A DNA stretch of 21,350 nt from positions 1,072 to 22,421 of the forward strand of contig MNUP01000104.1 in assembly GCA_001871075.1 (NCBI GenBank), written 5' to 3'. Positions 3,933-20,789 of the stretch are shown piece by piece (the first letter of the stretch is position 1; every line of letters starts with the position of its first letter). The stretch comes from Candidatus Desantisbacteria bacterium CG1_02_49_89 (GTDB lineage Bacteria > Desantisbacteria > UBA1551). Below the pieces are notes generated by a model. The model saw nothing but the letters and a program-made list of their open reading frames with translations, was not told the DNA's origin and searched no databases. The translations under genes and the position numbers were made by a program.

Positions 3933-4734
3933 GTCAAATTGCAAATTGCAAATTGCAAATTGGTTAATCCTGATCAACCTATTGGCATTTTTGATAATGG
4001 TTGACACAGTTGCGCAAGCGGCGAGGATAGCCACGTTATCTTTGTTCTCGGGTAAAGTGGAGGTGCAGAGAAGCCAGAAAGACAGCTGGGAACCTGTAAA
4101 GATCAAAATGCCGCTTTACGTGAAGGACAAAGTGAGGACGGCAGCCAAATCTTCGGCGGAAATAGTGCTTGATGATAATAGTATATTGAGATTAAAGGAA
4201 AGGTCTGTTATGGAAATAAGGGACCTTAGCGAGGAAAGAGGGGCCAGAAATACTTCCTTCGGAGTACTTATCGGGAAGGTCTGGACCAGCGTGACACCCC
4301 AGCCCGCGGGTTCCAAGTTCCAGATACTCAGCACGTCCGCCACTGTAGGCGTAAGGGGCACGGTAATGGCCGTCAGCGTTGACGTGGAGCAGAACATGAG
4401 GGTCCTGCTTTTTGAGGGCAGCGCTATGATCACCACCATAAGAGCCAGGATGGAAGAAGCGCAGTCCTTGATGCTTTCCGCTAACCAGGCTGTTAATATA
4501 ACACCCGTTGTTTTATCACAGCCCGAACCTATCAAGCGGCAGGAGCGCGGGGAGTGGGATGATTTCATAAAGGAAATGGATAAAATAAAAGATGCGGCTG
4601 CGCCTGAGGCAGGTATAAAGCCGGGCGGCACTATAAAATATTCCATAAAAGCAAAGAACGTTGAGGGCAAGGAAAAGGAATCCGCCAAATACTCAATTGA
4701 AACAAAGGGCGGGACAAGGCAGGAAACGCAATAA
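3910..4734 (+). CDS. FecR-domain exported protein
   Basis: A 274-residue protein. Its start is supported by GAAGGAAGGAG ending a few bases upstream, inside the end of the previous gene. After a short N-terminal stretch partly encoded by a heptamer array, a hydrophobic segment at 18-35 acts as signal peptide or anchor. The FecR fold follows at about 40-175: VRTAAKSSAEIVLDDNSILRL, then GVLIGKVWTSV, then FQILSTSATVGVRGTVMAV and LLFEGSAMI. These match the FecR pattern in which a repeated beta unit surrounds a TxxAxxxVRGT motif. The C-terminal 80 residues are Lys/Glu-rich and look disordered. Enterobacterial FecR is a sigma regulator, but stand-alone FecR proteins of this kind in candidate phyla have no established role. 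No sigma factor is nearby. Confidence 0.85.
   Translation: MKPQSNNKSNCKLQIANWLILINLLAFLIMVDTVAQAARIATLSLFSGKVEVQRSQKDSWEPVKIKMPLYVKDKVRTAAKSSAEIVLDDNSILRLKERSVMEIRDLSEERGARNTSFGVLIGKVWTSVTPQPAGSKFQILSTSATVGVRGTVMAVSVDVEQNMRVLLFEGSAMITTIRARMEEAQSLMLSANQAVNITPVVLSQPEPIKRQERGEWDDFIKEMDKIKDAAAPEAGIKPGGTIKYSIKAKNVEGKEKESAKYSIETKGGTRQETQ
3935..3962 (+). repeat. Heptamer array CAAATTG x4, in frame at the FecR gene start
   Basis: Four perfect 7-bp units. They lie inside the FecR reading frame, where they encode the CKLQIAN stretch just before the hydrophobic segment. Related CAAAATG/CAAATTG units occur at 6770-6797 and 16914-16948, also at the starts of exported-protein genes. Confidence 0.95.
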
Positions 4735-4742
4735 ATTAAAAC

Positions 4743-4782
4743 AGCTTATAAGCTTATAAGCTTGTAAGCTCACAAGTTATAC
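4743..4782 (+). repeat. Octamer array AGCTTATA x5 (degenerate)
   Basis: Units are AGCTTATA, AGCTTATA, AGCTTGTA, AGCTCACA and AGTTATAC. The array fills nearly the whole gap between the FecR gene and the barrel gene and ends 13 bp before the latter's ATG. No Shine-Dalgarno sequence remains in the gap. Confidence 0.9.
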
Positions 4783-4795
4783 AGTCAAAAAGCAA

Positions 4796-6688
4796 ATGAA
4801 ACGGATAATGATTTTTATTATTTTGGGTGTTATGATGGCACCGCCGGCGGCCATGGCCATTAAACAGGCAGAGCTTCAGCTGTCTGTTGCCTTCCCTGAT
4901 CCCGTGAAAGCAGGGGATAAAATAACGTTCCAGGTGGTTATTTTAAACACAGGCAGCGAGACATGGCTGGCAAACAGGTACTCGATCTACGCTGAAATAT
5001 ACGACGCGCGCGAGAAATACCTGGCCAAGACCGACCAGATACTCGGTAATGTAGCGGTAGGCTCCGCGGGCATGGCTATAATATACCTGCCGTATGCAAT
5101 TCCGCAGGATGAATATGAAGGCATGTATAAATACAGGATAATAGTGAATTATGAAAATAAGAGGATACTGTACAGCGATTTCCTGAGTTACACCGTAAGT
5201 TCGATCGCGCGCAAGGAGGAAAAAGCGTTCCTCCTGCCCGTAAAACTGAACGGCAAGGGCATGGTTTCATACAGGAACAGCACTGAGGAAAACTGGGACA
5301 GCTACTTATGGAATTTCAACCTGGGCCTGATGGGCCAGGCTTTTGATAACCCCATGATGTTTAAGCTTGATTCCGGGATTGCGACAGACGGCTTCAGGCT
5401 GAACACAATACTGCTCAATTACCGCCTGCCCGCGCTAAGCGTTTCAGCCGGGGACGTTATGCCCGTATTTTCACAGCTTGCCTTTTATAATACAGGTGTC
5501 AGGGGTTTTATGGTTGAATACAAACCGGGGAAGATAGAGCTGGCAGGAGTACTTGCGTCTTCGGTATTTGCCCGGCAGGGCACTGATACAGCGTCCGGTT
5601 CGTACGCAAGGTATACGGGCGGAGCCAGGGCAGGATTGGAAGCGGTTAAAGACATGAAATTCGGGGTTTCATGCGTTTATACTGCCGATGCCCCGGGTTC
5701 TCTTACGGATCCCGCCGTTTCTATGGCGCCGGCGAAAAACCTGGTCCTTGCAGCAGATGTTTCCTGCCTTATGTTCGGGAACTTCCTGCTGGACGGGGAA
5801 TACGCATACAGCAGTTATTCGGCAGACCTGGCAAGCGACACGGCAGCGCTGGACGACGGCGCATACAGGATTTCTTTTTCAGCGATGCTGGGTGATATTA
5901 CGGCTGGCATAACTTATAAGGAAGTAGGCACTTATTTTTCCTCGCTGAACAGCTCTTATTCAATAAGCGACAGGGCGGGGATAGAAGGGCTTCTTAATTA
6001 CAGCCTCGATTTCCTGAAGATCTATTTCATGTACGGCAGATTCAACGATAACCTTAGCAATGCCCCTGAAAAGGTTACTACCGCGATAGACAACCTGTCT
6101 TCATTTGTCACGGTCGCGTTCAGGGGATTTCCCGTATGCACTCTGGGTTACACGTGGAACAGCCTGGTGGGTAATCCGGCGTCGCTCGTTAACAACGTTA
6201 CCAGGAACGCGTCCATAGGGATAACGCATAAAATATGGGAAACCAACATATCCGCCGGGTACCAGGTCGCTGAATTTTACGATATCACTGACCTGTCGTC
6301 CGATATCATAAGCTATTCAGGCAATCTCCGCTTCAACCGCATGATAAACAATATTATTTCCCTGAACGCGGGAGTGAATTATTCCCGGCTCTACAGTATA
6401 GACCTTCCCAAGACCGATCAGACAGCGGGTGCAAGCGCGGGCGTGAATTACAGGCTGATACCAGAGAAATTCATCATTTCGGGATTTACAAGCGTTTCGC
6501 GCAGGATAGATGACGCCGGTACAACCGATAACCTTTATATTAACCTGAACGTGGACGGCACGTATAACATAAGCAGCGAGATGGCCCTTACGGTTGGGAC
6601 AGGCTGGATTAATTCCGCGGACCAGATCAATTCCGCCAACAGCTGCCAGAGCTGGAGCCTGGGCACGCGCGCGAGCTACAGCTTCTAA
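4796..6688 (+). CDS. Outer-membrane beta-barrel protein with N-terminal Ig-like domain
   Basis: A 630-residue protein with a clear signal peptide (1-21, ending AMA). Residues 24-130 form a soluble beta domain (LSVAFPDPVKAGDKITFQVVILNTGSE ... YRIIVNYENKRI) reminiscent of periplasmic Ig-like domains. From about 150 to the end, short amphipathic strands rich in alternating aromatic and small residues are separated by turns, for example GDITAGITYKEVGTYF, FLKIYFMYGRF and ETNISAGYQVAEF. The final strand LGTRASYSF ends in phenylalanine, the usual BAM recognition signal. The family is not recognised by name. No Shine-Dalgarno sequence is visible; an octamer array occupies that position. Its place between the FecR gene and the PorV gene suggests they act together at the outer membrane, which is inference. 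Confidence 0.75.
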   Translation: MKRIMIFIILGVMMAPPAAMAIKQAELQLSVAFPDPVKAGDKITFQVVILNTGSETWLANRYSIYAEIYDAREKYLAKTDQILGNVAVGSAGMAIIYLPYAIPQDEYEGMYKYRIIVNYENKRILYSDFLSYTVSSIARKEEKAFLLPVKLNGKGMVSYRNSTEENWDSYLWNFNLGLMGQAFDNPMMFKLDSGIATDGFRLNTILLNYRLPALSVSAGDVMPVFSQLAFYNTGVRGFMVEYKPGKIELAGVLASSVFARQGTDTASGSYARYTGGARAGLEAVKDMKFGVSCVYTADAPGSLTDPAVSMAPAKNLVLAADVSCLMFGNFLLDGEYAYSSYSADLASDTAALDDGAYRISFSAMLGDITAGITYKEVGTYFSSLNSSYSISDRAGIEGLLNYSLDFLKIYFMYGRFNDNLSNAPEKVTTAIDNLSSFVTVAFRGFPVCTLGYTWNSLVGNPASLVNNVTRNASIGITHKIWETNISAGYQVAEFYDITDLSSDIISYSGNLRFNRMINNIISLNAGVNYSRLYSIDLPKTDQTAGASAGVNYRLIPEKFIISGFTSVSRRIDDAGTTDNLYINLNVDGTYNISSEMALTVGTGWINSADQINSANSCQSWSLGTRASYSF

Positions 6689-6693
6689 ATGCA

Positions 6694-6721
6694 GTCATGG
6701 GTCATGTGTCATGAGTCATGA
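6694..6721 (+). repeat. Heptamer array GTCATGA x4
   Basis: Four 7-bp units (GTCATGG, GTCATGT, GTCATGA, GTCATGA) immediately after the stop codon of the barrel gene, 36 bp before the next start codon. Confidence 0.95.
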
Positions 6722-6757
6722 GCAAAATTGGAATAAAAATAGTTCGAAGGAGGGAAT

Positions 6758-7744
6758 ATGTTACAAATTCAAAATGCAAAATGCAAAATGCAAAATGCCC
6801 CAAAGGGATCCATTCGGACAAAGGTCAAAATGATTATTTTTATTCTTGCCTTACACCTTACACTTTACACGTTACACGGTATTTGCGGGGGGCCAGGCAC
6901 GACAGGAGCCGCATTCCTGAAACTGGGCGCAGGTTCTCGCCCGGTTGCCATGGGTGAGGCGTTCGTGGCAGCGGCAGACGATATAAACGCGCTTTACTGG
7001 AACCCGGCTGGCCTGGCGCTTGCAGACGGAAAACAGGTGAGCTTCGTCCATACAGAATGGTTCCAGTCGATCAGGTACGAGTACCTTGCTTATTGCCAGC
7101 AGGCTTTAGGCGGCACGATAGGGGCGGGGATTACCTACCTGTATATTGACGGCATAGAGAGGAGGGATGCGGCAGGAGTTCTGCTAAGTTCCGTGTCTAT
7201 TCCGGCAAACGACCTTGCTGTTGCTGCCGCGTATTCAAAGTCCCTTTCAGAGAAGCTTGCTGTCGGGGCGTCGGTAAAATTCATAAACCAGCAGCTTGAT
7301 GACCAATCCGCGATGGGTGTCGCGGCTGATATCGGCGTGCTTTTCAGGCCTTCTCCCGAAGGCCTGGCAGTAGGTGTTGCTTTGCAGAACCTGGGTTACC
7401 AGGCGGCTTTCGAGACAGTGGCAAGCCCGCTTCCCACAAACCTTAAGGCAGGAATATCCCAGAAATCCGCTGACGGCAACTTTACTTTCGCGGCCGATTT
7501 CAATTATTCCCTTCTTGACAGTATCTGGGCTGCCGGCGCAGGCATAGAATATTGGTTCCATCCGGTGTTTTCAGTCAGGGCAGGTTACAAATACAACAGC
7601 GCGATAAACAGCACTTTGGGGGCACTCTCAGGCCTTACCTGCGGTGTCGGATTTAAGGTAAGCATGATGAATATTGACTACGCGCTTGTTCCTTACGGTG
7701 ATTTAGGTTATACGCACAGAATAACCGTGGGGGCTAAGTTTTAA
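6758..7744 (+). CDS. PorV/PorQ-family outer membrane protein
   Basis: A 328-residue barrel of the PorV/UPF0164 family, related to FadL-type barrels. Hallmarks are GAGSRPVAMGEAFVAAADD followed by ALYWNPAGLA (about residues 50-80), then alternating strands and a C-terminal aromatic (VGAKF). PorV in type IX secretion is an outer-membrane lipid-linked shuttle that receives cargo with C-terminal sorting domains. That role here is inferred from the sorting-like domain encoded at 1563-2285. The ATG at 6758 is backed by a strong AAGGAGGG 3 bp upstream. The N-terminus is odd: residues 1-24 come from a heptamer array plus a palindrome, and the hydrophobic core (25-45) contains a second array (TTACACN x4). 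A later start at 6830 would give a more ordinary signal peptide but has no Shine-Dalgarno. Confidence 0.88.
   Translation: MLQIQNAKCKMQNAPKGSIRTKVKMIIFILALHLTLYTLHGICGGPGTTGAAFLKLGAGSRPVAMGEAFVAAADDINALYWNPAGLALADGKQVSFVHTEWFQSIRYEYLAYCQQALGGTIGAGITYLYIDGIERRDAAGVLLSSVSIPANDLAVAAAYSKSLSEKLAVGASVKFINQQLDDQSAMGVAADIGVLFRPSPEGLAVGVALQNLGYQAAFETVASPLPTNLKAGISQKSADGNFTFAADFNYSLLDSIWAAGAGIEYWFHPVFSVRAGYKYNSAINSTLGALSGLTCGVGFKVSMMNIDYALVPYGDLGYTHRITVGAKF
6770..6832 (+). repeat. CAAAATG array split by a BamHI-centred palindrome
   Basis: Four perfect CAAAATG units (6770-6797), then a 28-bp segment containing CCCCAAAGGGATCC (6798-6825), then a fifth CAAAATG (6826-6832). All of it is translated in the PorV gene. 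A near-identical CCCCAAAGGGATCC segment interrupts another array at 15511-15532. Confidence 0.93.
6851..6878 (+). repeat. Heptamer array TTACACN x4 in the PorV signal peptide
   Basis: Units are TTACACC, TTACACT, TTACACG and TTACACG. They encode the LHLTLYTLHG part of the hydrophobic segment. The same word, as TTACACG/TGACACG, recurs inside the signal peptide of the gene at 9106. Confidence 0.95.
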
Positions 7745-7796
7745 CGTGGGATGGAGAATGCCCGGTGGAATCCGGCCTGCTCACCATCTCGCAGGC

Positions 7797-7835
7797 GTCG
7801 CTAAACCGTCCCGATTTATTCATCGGGACAGCGAC
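7797..7835. repeat. Double-stem palindrome abutting the PorV remnant
   Basis: Outer stem GTCGCT/AGCGAC and inner stem TCCCGAT/ATCGGGA with a 6-base loop. It ends exactly where homology to the PorV C-terminus begins. There is no T-run, so this is a dispersed palindrome rather than a terminator. Confidence 0.75.
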
Positions 7836-7889
7836 CCTTATGGCGATCTGGGTTATACCCACCGGATAACAGTAGGCGCTAAGTTCTAA
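7836..7889 (+). pseudogene. Remnant 3' end of a second PorV-family gene
   Basis: Reading from 7836 gives PYGDLGYTHRITVGAKF and a stop, identical to the last 17 residues of the PorV protein ending at 7744. The DNA differs at nine of the 18 codons and every difference is synonymous, for example TTA/CTG and AGA/CGG. That is the mark of an ancient paralogue that diverged under protein-level selection and later lost everything except its tail. The sequence upstream of 7836 shows no further match. Confidence 0.88.
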
Positions 7890-7914
7890 TTAGTGTCCAG
7901 TATCCAGTAACAGC

Positions 7915-7950
7915 AGTTTACAGAGTTTATAAAGTTTACACAGTTTACAA
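7915..7950 (+). repeat. Nonamer array AGTTTACAN x4
   Basis: Units are AGTTTACAG, AGTTTATAA, AGTTTACAC and AGTTTACAA. Just downstream is a looser run of (C)GTGTAAAT-like words to about 8016. A related nonamer array lies at 15639-15674. Confidence 0.93.
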
Positions 7951-8023
7951 GTGAAAGATAAATTTCGTGTAAATCGTGTGCAATCGTGTGGTTAAATTTT
8001 GTGGTTTTGCGGTGGTTTTTAAC

Positions 8024-8053
8024 AAGGGTCCTCTGAAAAGGGGACCCTTTTTA
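8024..8053 (+). terminator. Intrinsic terminator closing the surface block
   Basis: Stem AAGGGTCC (8024-8031) pairs with GGACCCTT (8042-8049) across a 10-base loop, and the right arm runs into TTTTTATTT. It lies upstream of the promoter at 8126 and separates the PorV region from the chaperone operon. Confidence 0.85.
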
Positions 8054-8125
8054 TTTCCTTATATTTATACACTCTTTCAGCAGATTTTCAACGGAGGGGA
8101 AAGGGGTAAAAAAGGGGATTTTCTC

Positions 8126-8154
8126 TTGACTTTCAACGTAAAATATGGTATAAT
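8126..8154 (+). promoter_or_regulatory. Near-consensus sigma-70-type promoter for the SurA/PpiC-pdxA-rsmA genes
   Basis: TTGACT at 8126-8131, a 17-base spacer and TATAAT at 8149-8154. Transcription would start near 8161, giving a 5' leader of about 60 nt that is AT-rich and ends with AGGAGG at 8211-8216, 4 bases before the GTG start at 8221. Confidence 0.88.
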
Positions 8155-8220
8155 ATATGAATTATATATATAATGAATAACGATGTATATATAATAGTAT
8201 TTATGCTATAAGGAGGCAAA

Positions 8221-9096
8221 GTGAAAAGGTTTATTGCGGTAGGATTGGTGTGGGTTTTTATGCTGGGCGCGGTTGTTGTAAATGCCGCAGAAAAGAAAAG
8301 CACCAAGACAGGCACTGCTAAAAAGGCGGCGCCGGAAAAGTGGGTGGCTAAGATAAATGACAAGTACATAACCCTGGAGGAATTTGAATCAAGGTGGAAC
8401 GCGATACCTTTCCAGTATAAATACCAGTACGGCCTTTTCGGCCCTGAAGGCAAAATAAGGGTTCTGGATACACTTGTTAAAAATGAGCTGCTTTACCAGG
8501 AAGGCATAAAGAAGGGTATATTGAATTCGGAGACAATAACCCAGAGGATCGAGGACCTGAAGAAACAGGTTGTTGCAGAGGAACTGCTGACAAGGCAGAT
8601 GAAAGGCCTGGAAGCAAACGACTCCGAGGCTATGAGCTATTATAACGCGAACAAGCAGGAGTTCGGAGAGCCTGAACAGGTAAGGGTAAGGCATATACTT
8701 GTAAAAGCCGAGACCGAAGCCAATGAAGTCCTTGCTAAGCTGAAAAAAGGAGAGGATTTAGCGAAACTCGCCCCGGAGTACTCGATTGACCCGGGCACCA
8801 AGGACAAAGGCGGCGAGCTGGGTTTCTTTTCCAGGGGCCAGATGGTGCCTGAATTCGAGGAAGCGGCTTTCGGCTTAAAGGTCGGAGAGCGCAGCGGCGC
8901 CATAAAAACCGCATACGGCTACCACATTATAGAATCCGAGGAGAAAAAAGAAGGCTCCCAAAAAAGTTTTGATGAAGTAAAGGAAGAGGCAAAGAACGCC
9001 GCGTTCCAGGAGAAGCAGAGGAAGCTGTTTGAGGCTTACCTCGAGGAACTTGGCAAGAAGGCTGATGTTCAGCTTAAACAAGAGCTTCTTCAGTAA
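8221..9096 (+). CDS. Periplasmic peptidylprolyl isomerase, PpiC/PrsA/SurA type
   Basis: A 291-residue exported foldase that catalyses cis-trans isomerisation of proline bonds and probably chaperones outer-membrane proteins in the periplasm. The GTG start follows a strong AGGAGG. The signal peptide is residues 1-23 and is followed by a Lys/Ala-rich linker. A SurA-N-like helical chaperone region spans about 40-145. One parvulin domain covers 152-243, with VRVRHILVK, YSIDPGTKDKGGELGFFSRGQMVPEFEEAAF and TAYGYHIIES, which are the conserved parvulin blocks. The C-terminal helix is charged. It is first in its operon and 9 bp from the next SurA-like gene. It is smaller than E. coli SurA, which has two parvulin domains. 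Confidence 0.92.
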   Translation: MKRFIAVGLVWVFMLGAVVVNAAEKKSTKTGTAKKAAPEKWVAKINDKYITLEEFESRWNAIPFQYKYQYGLFGPEGKIRVLDTLVKNELLYQEGIKKGILNSETITQRIEDLKKQVVAEELLTRQMKGLEANDSEAMSYYNANKQEFGEPEQVRVRHILVKAETEANEVLAKLKKGEDLAKLAPEYSIDPGTKDKGGELGFFSRGQMVPEFEEAAFGLKVGERSGAIKTAYGYHIIESEEKKEGSQKSFDEVKEEAKNAAFQEKQRKLFEAYLEELGKKADVQLKQELLQ

Positions 9097-9105
9097 GGAA
9101 AACAC

Positions 9106-9756
9106 ATGCGTAAACTTATTTCTCTGATAGTTTTTAGTATAGTTTGTTTCTTTTTTATCTTACACGTAACACGTGACACGTTACACGTTTGTTACGCCGC
9201 CCAGGTCGTTGAGCGCATTGTCGCAAAGGTTAACGATGAGGTTATATTCAAGTCCGAGCTTGATGAATATGTCAGGAACGCGCGCGCCCAGATGGGAGAC
9301 AGGATAACCGGCAGTGAGAGCGAGCTTGCCAGGAAAGCACTCGACCAGATGATAGAGGAAAAAATATTGCTGCAGGAGGCGAAAAAGGAAGATATAGAAG
9401 CCACGGAAGACGATCTGAAAACAGCGCTTCAGAACATAAGGGATAAGTTTCCCTCTAAGGATGAATTTGACAGAGAGATGAAAAAGCAGGGCATGACCCT
9501 TGCGGATCTGCAGGAAACGCTGAAGAAGCAGGTCAAAATATTGCGCCTTATAGAGAAAAACGTGAAAAGAAAGATACAGGTGACAAGCGGGGAGGGGAGG
9601 GAGTATTACAGGCAGCACAAGGATGAGATAGGGAAGCCGCTGGACAGCGCAAAAGAAGAGATCAACAACATTATTTTCGAGCAGAAGTTCAACGAAGCGT
9701 TCGGAAAATGGGTTGAAAAACTGAAAAAAAGAGCCATCATCGAGATCAAATTATAA
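9106..9756 (+). CDS. SurA N-terminal-domain protein lacking a parvulin domain
   Basis: A 216-residue exported protein. After the signal peptide (about 1-32) it has a typical SurA start, VERIVAKVNDEVIFKSELDEYV, then helices ARKALDQMIEEKILLQEAKKEDIEATEDDL and a C-terminal helix pair that swaps back as in SurA. No parvulin blocks are present, so it should act as a chaperone without isomerase activity. Its Shine-Dalgarno (AAGGA) overlaps the stop codon of the preceding foldase, so the two are co-translated and may work as a pair on outer-membrane proteins such as the barrels encoded upstream. The signal peptide contains a translated heptamer array (9163-9190). Confidence 0.88.
   Translation: MRKLISLIVFSIVCFFFILHVTRDTLHVCYAAQVVERIVAKVNDEVIFKSELDEYVRNARAQMGDRITGSESELARKALDQMIEEKILLQEAKKEDIEATEDDLKTALQNIRDKFPSKDEFDREMKKQGMTLADLQETLKKQVKILRLIEKNVKRKIQVTSGEGREYYRQHKDEIGKPLDSAKEEINNIIFEQKFNEAFGKWVEKLKKRAIIEIKL
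9163..9190 (+). repeat. Heptamer array CACGTNA x4 in the SurA-like signal peptide
   Basis: Units are CACGTAA, CACGTGA, CACGTTA and CACGTTT, a rotation of the TTACACG word at 6851-6878. They encode HVTRDTLHVC, which puts Arg and Asp inside the hydrophobic part of the signal peptide, an unusual composition. Confidence 0.93.
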
Positions 9757-9763
9757 TTACAGT

Positions 9764-9888
9764 GTCGCCCCTGCGGCGACCCGCCATGCCTCGTCGGCAG
9801 GTCGCCGAAGTGGTGACCGAAGTGGCGGGATTCTGAAAGAGATTACCCCTGCAGCCCCGACATAAGAATCGGGACAAAACGCAGGGGT
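9764..9888. repeat. Three palindromic elements between the SurA-like gene and pdxA
   Basis: The stems are GTCGCC/GGCGAC (9764-9780), CCCGCCA/TGGCGGG (9780-9829) and an outer ACCCCTGC/GCAGGGGT stem (9845-9852 and 9881-9888) enclosing CCCGA/TCGGG. The third shares its outer stem (CCCTGC/GCAGGG) with the element at 19600-19628. None has a T-run. A direct 13-bp repeat, AATCACCGTAATC, follows at 9921-9933 and 9944-9956, just before the pdxA ribosome-binding site. Confidence 0.8.
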
Positions 9889-9982
9889 CCTTTAGGGACA
9901 GTGATTATTTAAATTTAGATAATCACCGTAATCAGCAGTTAAAAATCACCGTAATCGTTTTTACAAGGAAGGTGAGAAAGGT

Positions 9983-10999: not shown

Positions 11000-11035
11000 A
11001 AACAGCCTGCTGGTCCTACGGCAGCAGCAACCAAT

Positions 11036-11917
11036 ATGGAAACATTTGAGCAGGAGATAAGGCGGTTATTAGCGGAATACCATTTAAACGCAAGGAAACG
11101 CCTCGGCCAGAACTTCCTGGTTGACAGCGCGGTCGTTTCAAGGATAATACAGGCGGCAGACCTTTCCGGCGACGACACTGTTCTTGAGATCGGTTCCGGC
11201 CCCGGGATCCTGACCGGGCTCATAGCGGAAAAAGCCGGAAAAGTATTTGCCATTGAGCTTGACAGGGGATTTATAAAAATCCTTGAGGACAGGTTCGGCG
11301 GGAACAGCAAGGTCGGGATAGTAAGGGGGGATATCCTGAAGATCGACCTGCTTCCCCTTTTTTCAGCGGAACGGGAAAAACCGGTTAAGATCATAGCCAA
11401 CCTCCCTTATTACATAACAACACCTATTCTGATGCGCCTGCTCAGCCTGAAACTGCCGCCGTTAAGCACCATGTTTGTAATGGTGCAGAAAGAAGTGGGC
11501 ATGCGCCTGGCAGCAAAGCCCTGCTCAAAGGATTACGGCATACTCACGCTCGTTACCAGGTATTATGCGGAACCCGAAATGCTGTTGCTGGTGCCCAGGA
11601 ATTCGTTCATGCCGTCACCCGCGGTCGATTCAGCGCTGCTGAAGCTTACCGTGCTTGAAAGGCCGCCGGTAAACGTGAAAGACGAGAAACTATTCTTCTC
11701 CGTTATTAAAACCGCGTTCGGGCACAGGAGAAAAATGCTCGTTAATTCATTTGTCAAAAGCCCGCTGGGATCTTCGACAAAAAAGCAGGTTCTCGGTTTT
11801 TTTTCTGCCGCAGGGATAGATCCCCGCAGAAGGGCAGAGGAACTGGGCATGGGAGATTTCGCCCGCCTTTCCGACGTTATACATGATAACAAACAGATGC
11901 TGGATCCTGGATCCTAG
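11036..11917 (+). CDS. rsmA: 16S rRNA (adenine1518/1519-N6)-dimethyltransferase
   Basis: A 293-residue RsmA/KsgA. It uses S-adenosylmethionine to dimethylate two adjacent adenosines in the 3'-terminal hairpin of 16S rRNA, a late small-subunit maturation step. Motifs are RLGQNFLVD (22-30), the SAM loop EIGSGPGILT (51-60), AIELD (72-76), GDIL (98-101) and the catalytic NLPYYITTPI (122-131). A C-terminal helical domain contains FGHRRKML. It lies 36 bp after pdxA; pdxA-ksgA adjacency is also found in E. coli. The Shine-Dalgarno is weak. The last residues, LDPGS, are encoded by a CTGGATC tandem duplication (11900-11913), so the tail appears to be repeat-derived. Confidence 0.95.
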   Translation: METFEQEIRRLLAEYHLNARKRLGQNFLVDSAVVSRIIQAADLSGDDTVLEIGSGPGILTGLIAEKAGKVFAIELDRGFIKILEDRFGGNSKVGIVRGDILKIDLLPLFSAEREKPVKIIANLPYYITTPILMRLLSLKLPPLSTMFVMVQKEVGMRLAAKPCSKDYGILTLVTRYYAEPEMLLLVPRNSFMPSPAVDSALLKLTVLERPPVNVKDEKLFFSVIKTAFGHRRKMLVNSFVKSPLGSSTKKQVLGFFSAAGIDPRRRAEELGMGDFARLSDVIHDNKQMLDPGS

Positions 11918-12029
11918 TTAAAGGAGTTTTATTTAAATAAATCCTTAATCCAGGATCTAACATCCCCGCCCTGAAACCTTAGGGCGAGGCTCGCCCAGGC
12001 ATAGGCCATGGGCGGCAGCATCCAGGATC
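11900..12029. repeat. CTGGATC/ATCCAGGATC words flanking a GC-rich palindrome
   Basis: CTGGATC occurs twice in tandem at 11900-11913. ATCCAGGATC, whose ATCCAG is the inverse of CTGGAT, occurs at 11948-11957 and 12020-12029. Between the latter two sits a 50-bp element bounded by CCGCCC (11966-11971) and GGGCGG (12010-12015), containing GCCCT/AGGGC. It occupies the gap between rsmA and the sugar-nucleotidyltransferase gene. Confidence 0.82.
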
Positions 12030-12046
12030 TGTTTAATGGAGATTGC

Positions 12047-14554: not shown

Positions 14555-14559
14555 GCACG

Positions 14560-15471
14560 ATGGAGGATCTGAGGTACGCAAGCGCTGTTGCAAGGATAAG
14601 GGTCCTGGAAAAATCCCTTCTGTCCGGGGAAAAGATCCGGAGGATGGAGGACGCGCCCGATGTTCCGGGGGCCTGGCAGGAAACAAAGGGCTGGGGCCTG
14701 AAGGAGACAGGGGATATAAACGCCGGCGATGCCGGGGAAATAAACGCGTTCCTTTTAAGCGAGCTCAGGTATACCAGGGACCTTGTTCTTTCCTTGGCGC
14801 TGGAAAAGAACATTGCGGAGCTGTTTTTTATCAAATATGACCTGCAGAACATCAGGGCGGCGCTTAAAGGCATGGGTGACGAAGGTATTTCTGATATCGG
14901 GACGGTTCCCGCGCGGAAAATAAAATCAGCCATGGAAAGCAGCGATTTTACCGGCCTGCGCCCGATGCTGAGAAAAATAATGAGCGCGAGGATAGAAGAG
15001 CTGCGAGCGGAGCCCGAAAATGCGGGCGCGGTGCTCGATGCCGATGCATACAGGCTGAGCATGGAAGAGATAAACGGAACCGAGTTCCCGTCCAGGGAAT
15101 TTGTCAGGGAGGTTTTCCGCACCGAGATCGATATCCACAATCTCAGGAGCCTTGCCAGGAGCAGGAGGCTTTCGAGGAAAGCCGATTTTTTTTCCAGGAT
15201 AGCCCTGGATGGCGGCACGCTGGAAAAGAAATTTCTGGTTGACAGGTATGAGTCGGAAACGGGCGGCCTGGATAGCATGGTGAGTTCCAGGCTGCAGGAA
15301 TCCAGCGCGAGGCTGAAGAAATTATATGAGTCCAGCATGTACACGGCTTTCGGTTTTGAACCGGTAATAACATATTTAAAAATGAGGGAAAGGGACGCCA
15401 GGCTTATCAGGGGAATAATGCTGTCAAAAATTTACGGAGAACAGCTGGATACGGCAGACTATATGGTTTAG
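14560..15471 (+). CDS. atpC: V/A-type ATP synthase subunit C
   Basis: A 303-residue AC39/subunit-C family protein that couples the V1 central stalk to the membrane rotor of a V/A-type ATPase. Visible features are an N-terminal helix LRYASAVARIRVLEKSLLS, YDLQNIRAALKGMG, and a C-terminal TAFGFEPVITYLKMRERDARLIRGIMLSKIYG. The last closely follows the family pattern of FG.EP...Y....E...IR.I..GK. The ATG at 14560 is preferred because AGAGGT lies 7 bases upstream; an in-frame ATG at 14542 would overlap the preceding gene by 13 bp and lacks a ribosome site. Tight spacing implies translational coupling to the nucleotidyltransferase fusion gene, an unusual partner. The other ATPase subunits are absent from the window apart from F. 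Confidence 0.85.
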   Translation: MEDLRYASAVARIRVLEKSLLSGEKIRRMEDAPDVPGAWQETKGWGLKETGDINAGDAGEINAFLLSELRYTRDLVLSLALEKNIAELFFIKYDLQNIRAALKGMGDEGISDIGTVPARKIKSAMESSDFTGLRPMLRKIMSARIEELRAEPENAGAVLDADAYRLSMEEINGTEFPSREFVREVFRTEIDIHNLRSLARSRRLSRKADFFSRIALDGGTLEKKFLVDRYESETGGLDSMVSSRLQESSARLKKLYESSMYTAFGFEPVITYLKMRERDARLIRGIMLSKIYGEQLDTADYMV

Positions 15472-15489
15472 GCCATAGCAGGCCAAGCC

Positions 15490-15539
15490 AATTATGAGTT
15501 ATGAATTATGCCCCAAAGGGATCCCTTCGGGAAATTATG
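15490..15539 (+). repeat. AATTATG array split by a BamHI-centred palindrome
   Basis: AATTATG, AGTTATG and AATTATG (15490-15510), then CCCCAAAGGGATCCCTTCGG (15511-15530, containing the perfect 12-bp palindrome AAGGGATCCCTT), then AATTATG again (15533-15539). It has the same architecture and nearly the same palindrome as 6770-6832, but a different heptamer word. Confidence 0.92.
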
Positions 15540-15577
15540 AATCAACAACAAGGAATTTTATTTAAACAAGGAGTGTT

Positions 15578-15712
15578 CCCGCCCAAAAGATTGGCGGGTC
15601 CGCCAATTAGTGTGGCGGAAACCTGTGGTTAAAAGAGAAGTTTACATGGTTTGCATAGTTTAAAGAGTTTCCAGGTCAAGATAATTAGTGGAAATTAGTG
15701 GAAATTCGTGGT
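15578..15712. repeat. Hairpin pair plus nonamer and decamer arrays between atpC and atpF
   Basis: Hairpins are CCCGCC/GGCGGG (15578-15598) and CCGCCA/TGGCGG (15600-15618). A 9-bp array follows (15639-15674: AGTTTACAT, GGTTTGCAT, AGTTTAAAG, AGTTTCCAG). Then comes a 10-bp array (15683-15712: AATTAGTGGA twice, AATTCGTGGT). Together with 15490-15539 they account for most of the 263-bp gap that separates two subunit genes normally found back to back. Confidence 0.88.
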
Positions 15713-15734
15713 TAGGTGGTTAGGGGGATTTACG

Positions 15735-16046
15735 ATGGAGGAGATAGCAGCGGTTGGGCCTGATGCCGGAGTTCTCGGTTTTGCCGCGTGCGGGATAAAG
15801 GTCTTCCCGGTAAAAAACGCGGAAGAGGCCGCAGGCATAATAAAAAAAATTATTGGAAAGTATGCCATTATACTTGTGAGCGAAACATTTATCGATGAGT
15901 TGAAAAAAAACATAAGGGATGTCGAAACAGGCGGATCGTCCATGATACTGCCCTTGCCAATGCTCGGTAGGTCTTCGGGAAAGGCAAAGGAAAGGATCGA
16001 AAGGTTCATCAGGGGGGCGATAGGCATCCCGGGGCAATCAGTCTAA
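15735..16046 (+). CDS. atpF: V/A-type ATP synthase subunit F
   Basis: A 103-residue protein of the V-type ATPase F/NtpG family, a small Rossmann-like central-stalk subunit. Features are the start IAAVGPDAGVLGFAACGIKVFPV, then AEEAAGIIKKI, AIILVSETFIDEL, ILPLPM and a C-terminal helix ERIERFIRGAIGI, matching the family's ending. The ATG at 15735 follows TAGGGGG by 7 bases. A GTG at 15708 is in frame but lies inside a 10-bp repeat array and adds nine residues unlike the family, so it is rejected. It lies 263 bp after subunit C, with repeats between. I do not see subunits A, B, D, E, I or K. Confidence 0.85.
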   Translation: MEEIAAVGPDAGVLGFAACGIKVFPVKNAEEAAGIIKKIIGKYAIILVSETFIDELKKNIRDVETGGSSMILPLPMLGRSSGKAKERIERFIRGAIGIPGQSV

Positions 16047-16070
16047 AATGAATATTTTCTTGCTTTTTAC

Positions 16071-16098
16071 TTGCATTTTAATAAAAAGATGGTATAAT
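16071..16098 (+). promoter_or_regulatory. Sigma-70-type promoter of the small basic protein
   Basis: TTGCAT at 16071-16076, a 16-base spacer and TATAAT at 16093-16098. The predicted start of transcription is near 16105, leaving a leader of about 45 nt with GGGGGT before the ATG at 16151. Confidence 0.83.
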
Positions 16099-16150
16099 AC
16101 AATGAGTGGAAAGGAAACTTTCCAAGTCTTAAAATACGGGGGTAATGGAA

Positions 16151-16273
16151 ATGGGCAAGGTTATTTTAAAGAATGCCGTAAAAAGAGAAAAGGGATGCAT
16201 GTATTATGTGGATGGCAAGGGAAATCTTTGCGAAGCAAAGATGGCAAAAGGCGGGAAGAGGAAAAAGAAATAA
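16151..16273 (+). CDS. 40-residue highly basic small protein, own transcription unit
   Basis: A compact ORF encoding 40 residues, about one third Lys or Arg: it starts MGKVILKNAVKREKG, has a central CMYYVDGKGNLCEAKMA and ends KGGKRKKK. The two cysteines are 11 residues apart. GGGGGT (16138-16143) is a suitable ribosome-binding site for the ATG at 16151; an in-frame ATG at 16145 is too close. It has a dedicated promoter (16071) and terminator (16304), typical of abundant small proteins. The basic tail and aromatic/Gly-rich core resemble small ribosome-associated or nucleic-acid-binding proteins. I have a vague memory of similar tiny proteins in candidate phyla but cannot name a family. Function unknown. 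Confidence 0.78.
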   Translation: MGKVILKNAVKREKGCMYYVDGKGNLCEAKMAKGGKRKKK

Positions 16274-16303
16274 CCGTTAGTTCTGTTTTATTAACTTTCC
16301 TGA

Positions 16304-16338
16304 ATAGGGTTGGCGCGTCCTGTGCCAACCCTATTTTT
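16304..16338 (+). terminator. Strong intrinsic terminator after the small basic protein
   Basis: An 11-bp perfect stem, ATAGGGTTGGC (16304-16314) with GCCAACCCTAT (16324-16334), and a 9-base loop, followed by TTTTTG. It sits 30 bp after the stop codon. Confidence 0.93.
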
Positions 16339-16348
16339 GTTTAAATAT

Positions 16349-16408
16349 GATTACACGGATTTTAAAAATGATTCCTCAGATTAAAAATATCCTGGAATCT
16401 GTGTAATC
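16349..16408. repeat. Inverted repeat GATTACACGGATT / AATCTGTGTAATC
   Basis: 13-bp arms at 16349-16361 and 16396-16408 with one mismatch, separated by A/T-rich DNA carrying a degenerate inner copy (GATTCCTCAGATT). It fills the gap between the terminator and the cvpA start. Repeats of this style are frequent between genes in many environmental genomes. Confidence 0.82.
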
Positions 16409-16417
16409 GGTGGAAAC

Positions 16418-16900
16418 ATGGGATGGCTTGATTTTGCGGTTTTGGGCGTTTTGATAGCAAGTATTGTCCTGGGGCTTAAAAGAGGCCTTGTAAGGGAAAT
16501 AATTTCGCTTGCCGGCATAATAACGGGGCTTGTTATCGCGAGCCGTTTTTATAAAAACTTTACGTTCTTTGGAAATACCTTTAAAAACCCGGTCCTGGGA
16601 AGGACAATTTCATTCCTGCTGATCTTTGCCGGGATCGCGGCTGTATTCGGCATAATAGGCATGCTGGTGCATAAATTCGTAAAAGCAGGCGGCCTGGGTA
16701 TGCTTGACCACCTGGGAGGGTTTATATTCGGATTTTTAAAGGGTGTATCGGTTACGGGGATCATCCTGTTCCTGCTCTCAAAATTTGTGTTTTTCCAGAA
16801 ATTAATGGATAAATCACCTGTAGCATCAGCCATCCTGAGGGTTTTTAGAAATATACTTTACCTTATATGGAGCAAACCGGAGACAACGGAATACATATAG
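16418..16900 (+). CDS. CvpA-family inner membrane protein
   Basis: A 160-residue integral membrane protein with four predicted transmembrane helices (about 4-22, 27-45, 62-84 and 100-125). The family start is present (WLDFAVLGVLIASIVLGLKRGLVREIISLAGIITGL, with the conserved G-x-x-RGLVREI turn). CvpA is linked to colicin V production and purF regulation in E. coli, and family members affect envelope integrity, but the molecular activity is unsettled. The Shine-Dalgarno is weak (GGTGG). It follows an independent terminator, so its promoter should lie in the repeat-filled gap at 16340-16417; I cannot identify one there. Confidence 0.88.
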   Translation: MGWLDFAVLGVLIASIVLGLKRGLVREIISLAGIITGLVIASRFYKNFTFFGNTFKNPVLGRTISFLLIFAGIAAVFGIIGMLVHKFVKAGGLGMLDHLGGFIFGFLKGVSVTGIILFLLSKFVFFQKLMDKSPVASAILRVFRNILYLIWSKPETTEYI

Positions 16901-16913
16901 CAGGATGACATTT

Positions 16914-16948
16914 CAAATTTCAAAATGCAAATTGCAAAATTTAAAATG
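16914..16948 (+). repeat. Heptamer array CAAAWTN x5 at the M16 peptidase start
   Basis: Units are CAAATTT, CAAAATG, CAAATTG, CAAAATT and TAAAATG. The annotated ATG (16925) and the alternative ATG (16946) both lie inside the array, and no Shine-Dalgarno is found next to either. Confidence 0.9.
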
Positions 16949-18304
16949 AAAAGAAATATACTTTTGGTGCTCCTTTTTGTTATGGTATGCGGTGCTTCCG
17001 GCGCGGCAGACGTGAAATATCTCAGGCTGGACAACGGAATGACCGTGATACTGAAGGAAGACCACAAGATACCGGCTCTGGCGATCCAGCTGTGGGTAAG
17101 GTGCGGTTCGAAAGACGAAGAAGAAACGATGGGCGGCATTTCGCATTTCCTGGAGCATATGGCATTCAAGGGGACCGAGAAGTACGCCGTAAATGAAATT
17201 CACAGAGAGGTTGAGAAGAGGGGCGGGGACATAAACGCCGGCACTTCCAGGGATTTTACCTATTATTACATTATCCTGCCCGGCAGCTTGTTATCCTATA
17301 TGGGCGAAACTCAGGCGCAGGGCCGGGAGAAGGCCGGGAATTCAAGCCTGCGCACCGGGCTCGATATCATATACCAGGTTTCTATGAAGTCTGTTTTCGC
17401 GGATGAAGAGATCGAGAAGGAAAAGCTTGTGGTCCTCGAGGAGATAAAACGCAAGTACGATGACCCGCAGGGTTACCTGTGGGACCTTTTCAATCAGGCG
17501 GTTTACGCCGGTTCTCCGTACGCGCACCCGGTACTCGGGACCGAAGTATCCGTTGGGAATTTCACTTCCGGGAACGTTGCGGATTATTTCAGGGAGCATT
17601 ATACCCCGCGGAATTTCATTCTTGTGCTCGCAGGTGATTTTAAGACCGGTGAAGCCGCGGGTATTATCAGGGAGCTTTTCGGAAAAGAGAAGGGCGGCCC
17701 GGTCTTTCCGGCGGCCCATGTTTCTCTTCCCCGGCAGCGGGAAAACCCGGAAGAAGTAAAGGCCGAAAGGAACATGATGCAGGCTTACCTGATAACAGGG
17801 ATGCTCGGTCCCGCCGGCGCTGACCAGGATGCTTACGCCATGGACGTTCTGGTCTACATACTCGGAAAAGGCAGGGCTTCAAGGCTTCACAGGATACTGA
17901 GGGAACGCAGGGAACTTGTCTGGGATATCGACTGTTCTTTTATAACGCAGGCGGGAATGGGGCCGTTCTACGTGTATGTGGAATGCGATCCGCAGAAGAT
18001 CCCCGAAGCGCGCGAAGAAATAAAGAACCAGCTGGACAGGTTTTCAGTGGAACAGGTGACTGAAGAGGAGATACGCAGGTCAAAAGCCCTTATAGAAAGC
18101 GAATACCTGCTGGGAACCGAATCAAACCAGGGTTTTGCTTTTAACCTGGGATACTACGAGCTCATAGGTTCCTACAGGTGGGGGCTTGACTATCTGAAGA
18201 ATATCATGAAGGTGACAAGCGGAGACATATTGCGGGTAGCCCGGAAATACATTGCAACGGAACGGTCCTTATGCGTAATGGTTGTTCCTTCTTCTGCGCA
18301 GTAG
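16925..18304 (+). CDS. M16-family zinc peptidase, catalytic member of a pair
   Basis: A 459-residue exported insulinase-type metallopeptidase. After a signal peptide (about 1-28) comes the inverted zinc motif HFLEH (H74, E77, H78), and the third ligand is E172 or E173 in VVLEEIKRKYDDP. The second half-domain has the substrate-binding RASRLHRILRERRELVWDID. Residues 125-143 are an extra stretch absent from the usual M16 spacing (the His-Glu distance normally has about 76 intervening residues). It is encoded by a palindromic insert (17297-17353), so activity may be altered. The start is uncertain because ATGs at 16925 and 16946 lie inside a heptamer array without a clear ribosome site. It is followed, with overlap, by a non-catalytic paralogue, the classic heterodimer arrangement. 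Confidence 0.92.
   Translation: MQIAKFKMKRNILLVLLFVMVCGASGAADVKYLRLDNGMTVILKEDHKIPALAIQLWVRCGSKDEEETMGGISHFLEHMAFKGTEKYAVNEIHREVEKRGGDINAGTSRDFTYYYIILPGSLLSYMGETQAQGREKAGNSSLRTGLDIIYQVSMKSVFADEEIEKEKLVVLEEIKRKYDDPQGYLWDLFNQAVYAGSPYAHPVLGTEVSVGNFTSGNVADYFREHYTPRNFILVLAGDFKTGEAAGIIRELFGKEKGGPVFPAAHVSLPRQRENPEEVKAERNMMQAYLITGMLGPAGADQDAYAMDVLVYILGKGRASRLHRILRERRELVWDIDCSFITQAGMGPFYVYVECDPQKIPEAREEIKNQLDRFSVEQVTEEEIRRSKALIESEYLLGTESNQGFAFNLGYYELIGSYRWGLDYLKNIMKVTSGDILRVARKYIATERSLCVMVVPSSAQ
17297..17353 (+). repeat. In-frame palindromic insert within the M16 peptidase gene
   Basis: About 57 bp, a multiple of three, encoding 19 extra residues. Its core has a 7-bp perfect stem GCGCAGG (17315-17321) and CCTGCGC (17347-17353), with two GCCGGG words between. 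The boundaries are estimated from the normal M16 motif spacing. Confidence 0.65.
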
Positions 18305-19566
18305 TAGTAATATTGCTTGGTTTTTCCGCACCTGTTCTTTCTGCCGACAAGTATATAACGAATAACGGCATTACGGTTATATACCAGCAGGATAAATCAA
18401 GCCTTATGACGCATGCCGTGGCTTTCATAAAAGGCGGCAACTGCGAAGAGAAAAAAGGGCAGGTGGGCATAACGACCTTCCTCCAGAGGATGCTTCTCAA
18501 GGGGACGGACGGCCGCAGCGCCGATCAGATAGCCGAGGGAATAGAATCGCTGGGCGGCTCGCTGGGGGCCGATCTTTCAAATGATTTCCTGCAGATCTCG
18601 CTTACGGTGCCGACAAGGTATTTCAGGGAAGGGTTCGGCATCTTCGCGGACGTGATAAGAAACCCGGCCTTCCCCGAGAACGAGGTTGAAAAGGAGAGGA
18701 AGGTATTGCTTGCGGATATCAAGGCGCGCTACGACGAGATATTCCCTTACACCTACGACTATTTTCTTATGACGATGTACGAAACCCTCCCGTACGGCAA
18801 CCTGATCCTTGGCGACAGGGAAGATGTCCGCGCGCTTACCAGGCAGGATATAATACAGTATTATTCCGGGTTCTGCGCCCCCAACAATATCGTGCTGGTT
18901 GTCCTGACGGGAATACCCGTTACGGATATCAAAAAAAGGATTGACGCGGAATTCGGGGATATGCTGCCGCGCGACAGGAACTGGGCGGGCAGCTGGGAAG
19001 TGCCGGAACGCGGCGAACCTGCCAGGATCACCGCGGGCAGGGGTTTCAAGCAGGCATTCCTTATGGTCGGTTTCGCGGCGCCGGAGGTCAGCTCAGATGA
19101 TTACCCGGTGATGAAACTGGTCAATAATATCATAGGTGAAGGCGGCAGCTCCAGGGCATTTGTCCGGCTCAGGGAAAAAGAGGGCCTGGCGTATGAGGTC
19201 GGCTCTTTTTATCCTTCAAGGAAGAATACAAGCCATTTTGTTGTCTATATGGGCCTTGCCCCGGAAAATATCTCTAAGTCCAGGGAAGAGATCCTTGATA
19301 TCCTGGATTCGGTTTCAACGCTCTCGGATGACGAGCTCAGTGACGCTAAATCATACCTTATCGGCAAATTCATACTGGACCACGAGAGCCCGCAAAGGCG
19401 CGCGTGGTACCTGGGCTGGTACGAGATAATGGGGAAAGGGTACGGGTATGACGAAAAATACCCGCAGGAGATAGCCGGCGTGAAAAAAGAGGATATAGAA
19501 AAGGCAGCCGCGGCATATTTCGGGAAAGACAACTGGGTATGCGTTGAGGTAGTGCCGCAGAAATAA
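18271..19566 (+). CDS. M16-family peptidase-like protein, non-catalytic partner
   Basis: A 431-residue exported protein with the M16 double fold. The signal peptide is residues 1-25. The zinc motif HxxEH is replaced by TFLQR (69-73), so all three motif residues are gone while the flanking VGITTFLQRMLLKGT matches the family. The second half has GEGGSSRAFVRLREKEGLAYEVGSFY, the R/Y substrate-binding region of M16 C domains, which is intact. The gene overlaps the active paralogue by 34 bp in another frame, implying translational coupling and 1:1 production. Active/inactive M16 pairs that form heterodimers are established (mitochondrial processing peptidase, some bacterial pairs). The expected role is periplasmic peptide or protein turnover; the substrate is unknown. 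Confidence 0.92.
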   Translation: MRNGCSFFCAVVVILLGFSAPVLSADKYITNNGITVIYQQDKSSLMTHAVAFIKGGNCEEKKGQVGITTFLQRMLLKGTDGRSADQIAEGIESLGGSLGADLSNDFLQISLTVPTRYFREGFGIFADVIRNPAFPENEVEKERKVLLADIKARYDEIFPYTYDYFLMTMYETLPYGNLILGDREDVRALTRQDIIQYYSGFCAPNNIVLVVLTGIPVTDIKKRIDAEFGDMLPRDRNWAGSWEVPERGEPARITAGRGFKQAFLMVGFAAPEVSSDDYPVMKLVNNIIGEGGSSRAFVRLREKEGLAYEVGSFYPSRKNTSHFVVYMGLAPENISKSREEILDILDSVSTLSDDELSDAKSYLIGKFILDHESPQRRAWYLGWYEIMGKGYGYDEKYPQEIAGVKKEDIEKAAAAYFGKDNWVCVEVVPQK

Positions 19567-19578
19567 AAAATGAACCAC

Positions 19579-19688
19579 AGTTCAATAGCTCAATTGCTTC
19601 CCTGCAGGCCCTTATGGCCTAACGCAGGGATTTCACTCCCAGTTCAACAATAGTTCAATAGTTCAAGGAATCCTCTGTGTCCTCTGTG
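19579..19688. repeat. AGTTCAAT array split by a CCCTGC/GCAGGG palindrome, plus TCCTCTGTG x2
   Basis: AGTTCAAT and AGCTCAAT (19579-19594) are followed by a 46-bp segment with nested stems CCCTGC/GCAGGG and AGGCC/GGCCT, then AGTTCAAC, AGTTCAAT and AGTTCAAG (19641-19667). TCCTCTGTG is duplicated at 19671-19688. These fill the gap between the M16 pair and larB. Confidence 0.9.
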
Positions 19689-19716
19689 GTTAGAAGTATG
19701 TTGGATAGGGATCTCA

Positions 19717-20454
19717 ATGGATAAAATAGAAAGACTGCTGAAAAAAATAAGGGCGAAAAAACTGGGCGTAAAAAAAGCGATGGAGGAACTGAAGCTGCTT
19801 CCTTACGAGGATATCGGTTTTGCGAAGATCGACCATCACAGGAAGCTGAGGAAGGGCGTGCCGGAGGTTGTTTTCTGCCCCGGGAAAAAACCGGAGCATA
19901 TAGCGCTAATTATGTCGAAGATCCTCAGGTATACCGATACCGTGCTTGCCACCAGGGCTTCTCCGGATATTTTCAAGCTCGTCCAAGGCAGTATACCTGA
20001 CGCGATCTACTTTGAGGACGCCGGGATAGTGGCAGTATGCAGGGGCAAAAAAGCGCGGAAACGCGGCAGGGTCCTTGTAGTGAGCGCCGGTTCAGGCGAT
20101 TTCCGCGCTGCCGAGGAGGCAGCGGTTGTCCTTGAGCTTCTGGGGAACAGGGTTGATCGCCTCTACGACGTGGGGGTCGCGGGCCTGCACAGGCTGATAT
20201 CAAACAAGGACAAGCTCAGTAAAGCGAATGTTATTATTGTCCTGGCAGGTATGGAGGGAGCGCTGGCAAGCGTTGTGGGCGGGCTTACAGACAAACCGGT
20301 CATAGCGGTTCCCACAAGCATAGGGTACGGGGCAAGCTTCAGGGGCATCGCGCCCCTGCTCACAATGCTTAACTGCTGCGCGCCCGGGGTTACGGTTGTG
20401 AACATTGACAACGGGTTCGGCGCGGGCTATTTCGCGCACCTTATAAATAAATAA
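19717..20454 (+). CDS. larB: Nickel-pincer cofactor biosynthesis protein LarB
   Basis: A 245-residue protein matching LarB, which carboxylates and hydrolyses nicotinic acid adenine dinucleotide to pyridinium-3,5-biscarboxylic acid mononucleotide. This is the first step to the nickel-pincer nucleotide of lactate racemase and related LarA enzymes. Seen: the N-terminal family motif IDHHRKLRKGVPEVVF (38-53) and an AIR-carboxylase-like domain (about 115-240) with SAGSGDFRAAEEA, GVAGLHRL, VLAGMEGALASVVGGL, PVIAVPTSIGYGASFRGIAPLLTMLNCCAPGVTVVNIDNGFGAG. Length is normal. The AGSGD loop differs slightly from the usual AGTSD. LarA, LarC and LarE are not in the window, so the cofactor pathway must be completed elsewhere or be absent. 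The ribosome site AGGGA lies about 6 bases before the ATG. Confidence 0.94.
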   Translation: MDKIERLLKKIRAKKLGVKKAMEELKLLPYEDIGFAKIDHHRKLRKGVPEVVFCPGKKPEHIALIMSKILRYTDTVLATRASPDIFKLVQGSIPDAIYFEDAGIVAVCRGKKARKRGRVLVVSAGSGDFRAAEEAAVVLELLGNRVDRLYDVGVAGLHRLISNKDKLSKANVIIVLAGMEGALASVVGGLTDKPVIAVPTSIGYGASFRGIAPLLTMLNCCAPGVTVVNIDNGFGAGYFAHLINK

Positions 20455-20458
20455 AAGC

Positions 20459-20553
20459 GTGTCAGAGTGTCAACGTATCAACGTGTCAAAGTAAATACAT
20501 TTTCAGTAATTCTTTGTTGTTACGCTGATACGCTGATACATTGATACGTTGAT
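20459..20553. repeat. Two octamer arrays in inverted orientation
   Basis: GTGTCAGA, GTGTCAAC, GTATCAAC and GTGTCAAA (20459-20490) face ACGCTGAT, ACGCTGAT, ACATTGAT and ACGTTGAT (20522-20553). GTATCAAC is the exact reverse complement of GTTGATAC in the second array, so the pair could form an imperfect stem around a 31-base spacer. It fills the larB-dtd gap. Confidence 0.92.
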
Positions 20554-20571
20554 ACGCAGTAAGGAAAAAGA

Positions 20572-20781
20572 ATGCGGGCCGTGGTCCAGAGGGTCAAGTG
20601 GGCGAAGGTATCCAGGATATCAGGCGAAAAAAGTGAACCGCTGGGTGAGATAGGCAAAGGCATGCTTATTTTCCTCGGGATAGGGAAGGGCGATAGCGCG
20701 TCCGATGCCCAGTACCTTGCGGACAAACTTTTAAACCTCAACGACGGCCCCGTTACCTTTGTAATAGACTCTAAGCAATGA
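20572..20781 (+). pseudogene. dtd: D-aminoacyl-tRNA deacylase with internal deletion
   Basis: Only 69 residues remain of a protein normally near 145-150. Residues 1-56 are a typical Dtd N-terminus (MRAVVQRVKWAKV ... GEIGKGMLIFLGIGKGDSASDAQYLADKLLNL). Residues 57-69 are the family's last strand (NDGPVTFVIDS). The roughly 80 residues between, including the catalytic SQFTL-type motif and the GVFGA-type region, are missing, and the frame is preserved across the junction near 20737-20742. Dtd removes D-amino acids (and glycine from tRNA-Ala) from mischarged tRNA; this version should be inactive. The ribosome site (AAGGA) and start look intact. An assembly collapse is an alternative explanation. 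Confidence 0.88.
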
Positions 20782-20789
20782 AAGTTTTT

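Follow-up and report, generated by a model that had tools for sequence, protein, structure and literature searches.

The tandem arrays of short words carried by the DNA analysed here, a stretch of 21,350 nucleotides (the window; MNUP01000104.1 positions 1072-22421) from Candidatus Desantisbacteria bacterium CG1_02_49_89, have the look of dispersed genomic elements of a class about which little is known, not of random stutter. The host genome is a 2.48-Mb draft in 150 contigs which is 93.5% complete, and array counts were made on 868 kb of stretches from it, together with searches of the whole genome. The 868 kb contain 371 arrays of period 7-10 (42.7 per 100 kb), of which 218 have a period of seven. 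A 586-kb subset holds 140, 54, 34 and 16 arrays of periods 7, 8, 9 and 10 respectively, and dinucleotide shuffles of this subset give about 0-0.7 arrays per period. Comparison with shuffled sequence, which the original prediction had proposed as a check, stands overall at 244 arrays against about one.

All fourteen sites of the original prediction are present in the window, at or within a few nucleotides of where it had placed them. Apart from two palindromic elements, they are described on the plus strand. Four exact copies of CAAATTG, a word of the YAAAWTK family, are preceded by AAGT (3935-3962) and lie where one gene stops and a FecR-domain open reading frame has its 5' end, and a AGCTTATA array of about 4-5 units is located between two genes (4743-4781). 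Four units of GTCATGN are found just 3' of a stop codon (6694-6722). The PorV-like gene carries two arrays in frame: CAAAATG in four copies right after the start codon (6765-6798), with a CCCCAAAGGGATCC palindrome following, and TTACACN in four copies in the signal-peptide region (6849-6878). Likewise in frame, a SurA-like gene has four copies of TTACACG where its signal peptide is encoded (9160-9189), and in a spacer there are four copies of AGTTTACAN, of the AGTTTAYAN family (7910-7949). The same word recurs in about four units further on, followed at 15683 by three copies of AATTAGTGGA, which is related to a class of three-copy 10-mers (15639-15711). An M16 peptidase gene carries at its 5' end a YAAAWTK array of about five CAAAWTK units (16910-16947), and an inserted palindrome, CCCTGCAGG...CCTAACGCAGGG, interrupts the AGTTCAAT array (19579-19667).

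Three features of the window are palindromic elements or part of one. The full element (20457-20560) is located between the stop codon of a larB-like gene and the start of dtd and is composed of four CGTRTCAR units, a degenerate core and four inverted CGTRTCAR units; it folds with a z of -8.8, and its arms are mismatched at six of eight free positions. The two arrays listed separately at 20459 and 20522 both exist but are the two arms of this one element. A half element (15490-15572) has TTATGAR units split by a CCCCAAAGGGATCCCTTCGGGA palindrome and followed by the core half CAACAACAAGGAATTTTATTTAA; this is the site listed as AATTATG, of which three units adjoin and a fourth lies past the inserted palindrome. 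A smaller element with GGATCCT-word arms and a AAAGGAGTTTTATTTAAATAAATCCTT core (11894-11962; RNA fold z -4.8) had been overlooked. A search of the window against Rfam gave no match. In the same window dtd (20572-20840) encodes only 69 amino acids, with a Pfam match to positions 1-51 of 144, and is possibly a broken gene, adjoined downstream by a dispersed ACTGAT...ACACTG-type repeat; the open reading frames 304-1620 and 1563-2285 resemble one secreted-protein gene with a frameshift (304-2285).

The words, which had been taken as locus-specific, recur across the genome in about fifteen degenerate families, including TTATGAR, CGTRTCAR, AGTTTAYAN, YAAAWTK, TTACACG, ACGAYGN, GTCATGN, AAAGTTR, the GGATCCT types, AATYCGTGGN, CACAGAGG and others. 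The best families are near-invariant over about 80-106 units except at one or two positions (R, Y or N), and AGTTTAYAN, GTCATGN and ACGAYGN have one fully free base per unit. Runs were counted for nine words, allowing at most one mismatch per unit. Four units make up 27 of the 34 runs of TTATGAR (five runs have three units and two have five) and 36 of the 42 of CGTRTCAR (four with three, two with five). Runs of three, four and five units number 10, 19 and 2 for AGTTTAYAN, 7, 15 and 2 for TTACACG and 16, 36 and 6 for ACGAYGN; the YAAATTG family is broader (17, 16 and 9), and the 10-mer AATYCGTGGN occurs in 26 runs of three and none of four or more. In shuffled sequence only one run of at least three units turned up for all nine words together. 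A peak near four is thus present in the main families, and the proposal that period and copy number are kept while the word varies holds for them. The spike is not an artefact of the method, because in another genome (G065) the counts decay up to 15.

Inverted copies form 22 of 68 neighbouring array pairs, against 4.75% of random pairs. TTATGAR and CGTRTCAR are the arms of inverted-repeat elements of about 105 bp with a common AT-rich core, in idealised form CAACAACAAGGAATTTTATTTAAATAAAATTCCTTGTTGTTG; between GGATCCT arms a similar AAGGA...TCCTT core is found, and some elements carry two different arms. The view that no single dispersed repeat family is involved is incomplete: such a family does account for part of the arrays, since in at least two word families these are the arms of palindromic elements that share a core. 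When the TTATGAR element was searched for with a covariance model, the host genome gave 66 matches, each locus matching on both strands, so that they correspond to about 33 loci; a relative of the same order (G001) gave none, and two further genomes gave weak matches. Example elements fold with z values of -7 to -13.5. Identity between elements is 94.5% in the arms (outside the free columns) and 72-75% in the core. The terminal inverted repeats expected of a MITE are present in 30 elements with inverted arms of four units; no target-site duplication was evident by eye in the flanks of these 30. In 26 of the 30 a rare TGATG or TGCTG unit is restricted to one arm and tracks the polarity of the core, which suggests that the elements are passed on whole, as blocks. 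Such block copying is well supported for TTATGAR only: tests of unit order over lumped families, in which left and right arms are mixed, are weak or null for most. Most word families consist of single arrays with no core, and the single arrays are as conserved as the paired ones.

The arms preserve the word while avoiding perfect pairing. At the free purine of 30 TTATGAR elements, arm against arm, A faces G in 85 cases, A faces A in 26 and G faces G in 4, so that 30 of 115 positions are in the same state, against 59 expected. Polarised by the marker, the elements show 27 matches against 45.8 expected (P<1e-4); the permutation takes copies as independent, so that significance is overstated, which is lessened by counting each of 17 distinct haplotype pairs once (20 against 30.3, P=0.0009). 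For CGTRTCAR, with the window element included, matches number 6 of 24 where 12.4 were expected (P=0.004). The arms of one element therefore pair worse with each other (4.63 mismatches) than do arms taken from different elements (3.38). Covariation of an RNA stem and compensatory changes as in REPINs were therefore rejected at the free positions, these being anti-complementary in both TTATGAR and CGTRTCAR. Inversion of the inner segment is unlikely as the cause of the anti-correlation, since in full-core elements the inner free bases are exchanged without any change in how core polarity goes with the TGATG marker, and a bias of assembly against perfect palindromes found no support, as contig ends show no excess of arrays (7 out of 93, compared with 6.7%). 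Two similar pairs were seen by eye in other genomes, AAGCTNT on an Omnitrophota contig (L037:3409-3493) and GAGTCAA in four copies facing four of GAGTCTG in G065 (L159:18792-18866).

Array midpoints are intergenic in 174 of 244 cases, though 12.6% of the sequence lies outside long open reading frames, a more than five-fold enrichment. The predicted location between genes is therefore correct; the predicted preference for gene 5' ends is not, since 4.8% of arrays lie 0-9 nt from a start codon against 9.4% expected. The 0-9 nt after a stop codon hold 27.9% of the arrays, where 10.8% would be expected if they were placed at random within the same spacers. Divergent promoter spacers, about 10% of spacer length, hold 9 of 164 arrays and are not enriched. 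Between a stop codon and the next ribosome-binding site, a TTATGAR element often takes up all of the spacer. TTACACG, whose forward strand has no stop codon, lies in frame in signal-peptide regions at 6849 and 9160 of the window and also in the stretches L064 and L076. The SurA-like orthologue in G001 has in the same region an array of another word, of the GTCATYT type; heptamer arrays were also seen in signal-peptide regions of secreted proteins of G001 at L129:3432 and L118:17729.

Density of arrays varies between genomes. The relative G001 has 4.7 per 100 kb in the 232 kb examined, and in most of the small samples taken from other genomes there are none. G065 and G094 have 35-38 per 100 kb, a value which may be inflated since their stretches were partly picked for CAAATTG-like matches; in G065, a genome of 1 Mb (L142, L143, L150-L159), heptamer and octamer arrays are dense, with copy numbers decaying from 3 to 15. 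Horizontal spread of the words is not claimed, words shared with these two distant genomes being only weakly above chance (8 against 3.4 for G065, 3 against 1.4 for G094). A blastn search of plasmids with a 50-nt artificial heptamer sequence as query found nothing.

Candidates for a mover were sought among RAYT transposases. Two RAYT genes with repeat-rich flanks are surrounded by a different REP family, not by the word arrays, and no word arrays were present near seven of eight Y1 loci inspected; mobilisation by RAYT was rejected as the two RAYTs carry their own REP. Both are RAYT-like transposases of 163 amino acids on L089 and L090 (G000:C23), and the REP round them, GTAACTCA...TGAGTTAC, is present there in many copies; it forms a repeat family of its own, found in the window as well, near 2338. 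Repeats of the TGTCATTGCG/TCGCAATGAC type were noted in about 35 of 399 sampled host spacers and of the CACCGTAATC type in about 27. As to binders, only three RHH_1 proteins were found encoded in the host genome. SbcD (TIGR00619) has no match in the 93.5%-complete draft, while 13 of 14 control genomes have one, and the match to SbcC is weak.

Replication slippage would make the arrays ordinary heptamer microsatellites, growing and shrinking locally. In many bacteria the most frequent of the long simple repeats are heptamers, according to Mrazek 2007 as summarised in PMC4679880; the lumped families YAAAWTK, ACGAYGN and AAAGTTR are more alike within than between arrays, and the decay in G065 from 3 up to 15 is of the kind that slippage would leave. 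The host lacks the variable, length-decaying copy number of such repeats: counts spike at four with hardly any above five, and at exactly three for 10-mers, and this spike with a near-empty tail disfavours slippage, as the original prediction had held. Homogenisation is absent in TTATGAR, CGTRTCAR and AGTTTAYAN (unit identity within arrays 0.88, 0.89 and 0.84, between arrays 0.89, 0.88 and 0.86), and inverted arms have a common core. We consider slippage decidedly unlikely. Transcribed, REP-like stem-loops at stop codons, with RNA selected for transcript ends, stability or translation, are unlikely; strong hairpins and the excess of arrays up to 9 nt after stop codons speak for them, but the free positions are anti-complementary instead of covarying, most arrays are without a partner, and singles are conserved like pairs.

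RHH proteins bind tandem words of 7-8 bp, and tandem operators or centromeres bound by them include those of MetJ and omega/ParB. Arrays of operators for several transcription factors would fit the degenerate words, which with their fixed and free positions resemble binding motifs, and RHH binding to tandem words has precedent in the heptads of pSM19035 (PMC9499535). Yet arrays are not in excess in divergent promoter spacers, they are located downstream of stop codons and within signal-peptide regions, and hundreds of them occur per genome; operators are accordingly very unlikely. Synthesis from a template, with about four copies of it added at breaks by an enzyme resembling a reverse transcriptase or telomerase and with the free base non-templated, would account for the fixed unit number and for the one fully free base that units of AGTTTAYAN, GTCATGN and ACGAYGN have; it is extremely improbable, as the arms and core of TTATGAR elements are inherited together in blocks and many templates would be required.

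The reading to which we give about an even chance is that small, dispersed, non-autonomous intergenic elements have expanded in this lineage and that the arrays form their bodies or arms, with the four-copy word as putative recognition block. The word would be read cooperatively, as duplex DNA, by a putative protein needing about four adjacent sites, which may be the mover of the element or a host factor; a factor that reads the phased array of four is a live idea. Because the free bases avoid pairing, the word is more likely selected in duplex DNA than as an RNA stem. The mismatches would be kept as a perfect palindrome of about 100 bp would extrude or be lost, and may thus protect against palindrome instability. 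Against the element reading, no mover or binder was found among the RAYT flanks and RHH_1 genes examined, most families lack a core, and fifteen or more words would call for several binders. It is possible, though we doubt it, that an undescribed class is involved, with a constant palindromic core, exchangeable arms, exactly four copies of a subfamily-specific word, cooperative word-binding machinery and mismatches at one free base that prevent perfect pairing; the pairs in Omnitrophota (L037) and G065 (L159) are possible further cases.

The elements resemble several known systems and fail at least one defining feature of each. The short tandemly repeated repetitive sequences (STRR) of heterocystous cyanobacteria are heptanucleotides with many words per genome, mostly intergenic. 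The predicted analogy with them is close, the host arrays being dominated by period 7 (218 of 371), of several words and intergenic (174 of 244). Unlike STRR, the host has mostly four units, periods of 8, 9 and 10 as well and two families that are palindrome arms, and it is not a heterocystous cyanobacterium, the nearest named relative of its LarB-like gene being in Ca. Desantisbacteria CG1_02_38_46 (67% identity). The TAACTGA direct repeats of marine Beggiatoaceae and some Cyanobacteria and Bacteroidetes are one word in two to six copies, falling in number from two up and mostly just upstream of starts (PMC4679880). They share with the host arrays short heptamer sets which are mostly intergenic, tolerated at gene ends and suspected of mobility, whereas the host has about fifteen words, a spike at four and a bias to the bases after stop codons. 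REPINs have two conserved inverted arms and a less conserved spacer with compensatory changes, are extragenic and expanded in particular lineages, and single arms are common (PMC3116915, PMC3733652). The host elements are alike in arms better conserved than the spacer (94.5% against 72-75%), extragenic location, expansion in a particular lineage and common singles; they differ in that the arms are tandem words, not palindromic REPs, no linked RAYT was found, singles are not more decayed than pairs and free positions anti-covary. The parS of pSM19035 consists of contiguous 7-bp repeats, of which the RHH protein ParB requires at least four for function (PMC9499535), a precedent for a threshold of four heptads; parS is a plasmid centromere of one word, and neither a protein of this kind nor a link to ParA was found in the host.

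The fixed four units, the fixed and free positions and the non-pairing arms make the origin of such arrays testable, as block movement against slippage, as duplex recognition against an RNA stem and as a binder with a four-site threshold. For decades, intergenic tandem heptamers have been recorded in cyanobacteria and now and then in other organisms, and no account of their origin is known to be accepted.
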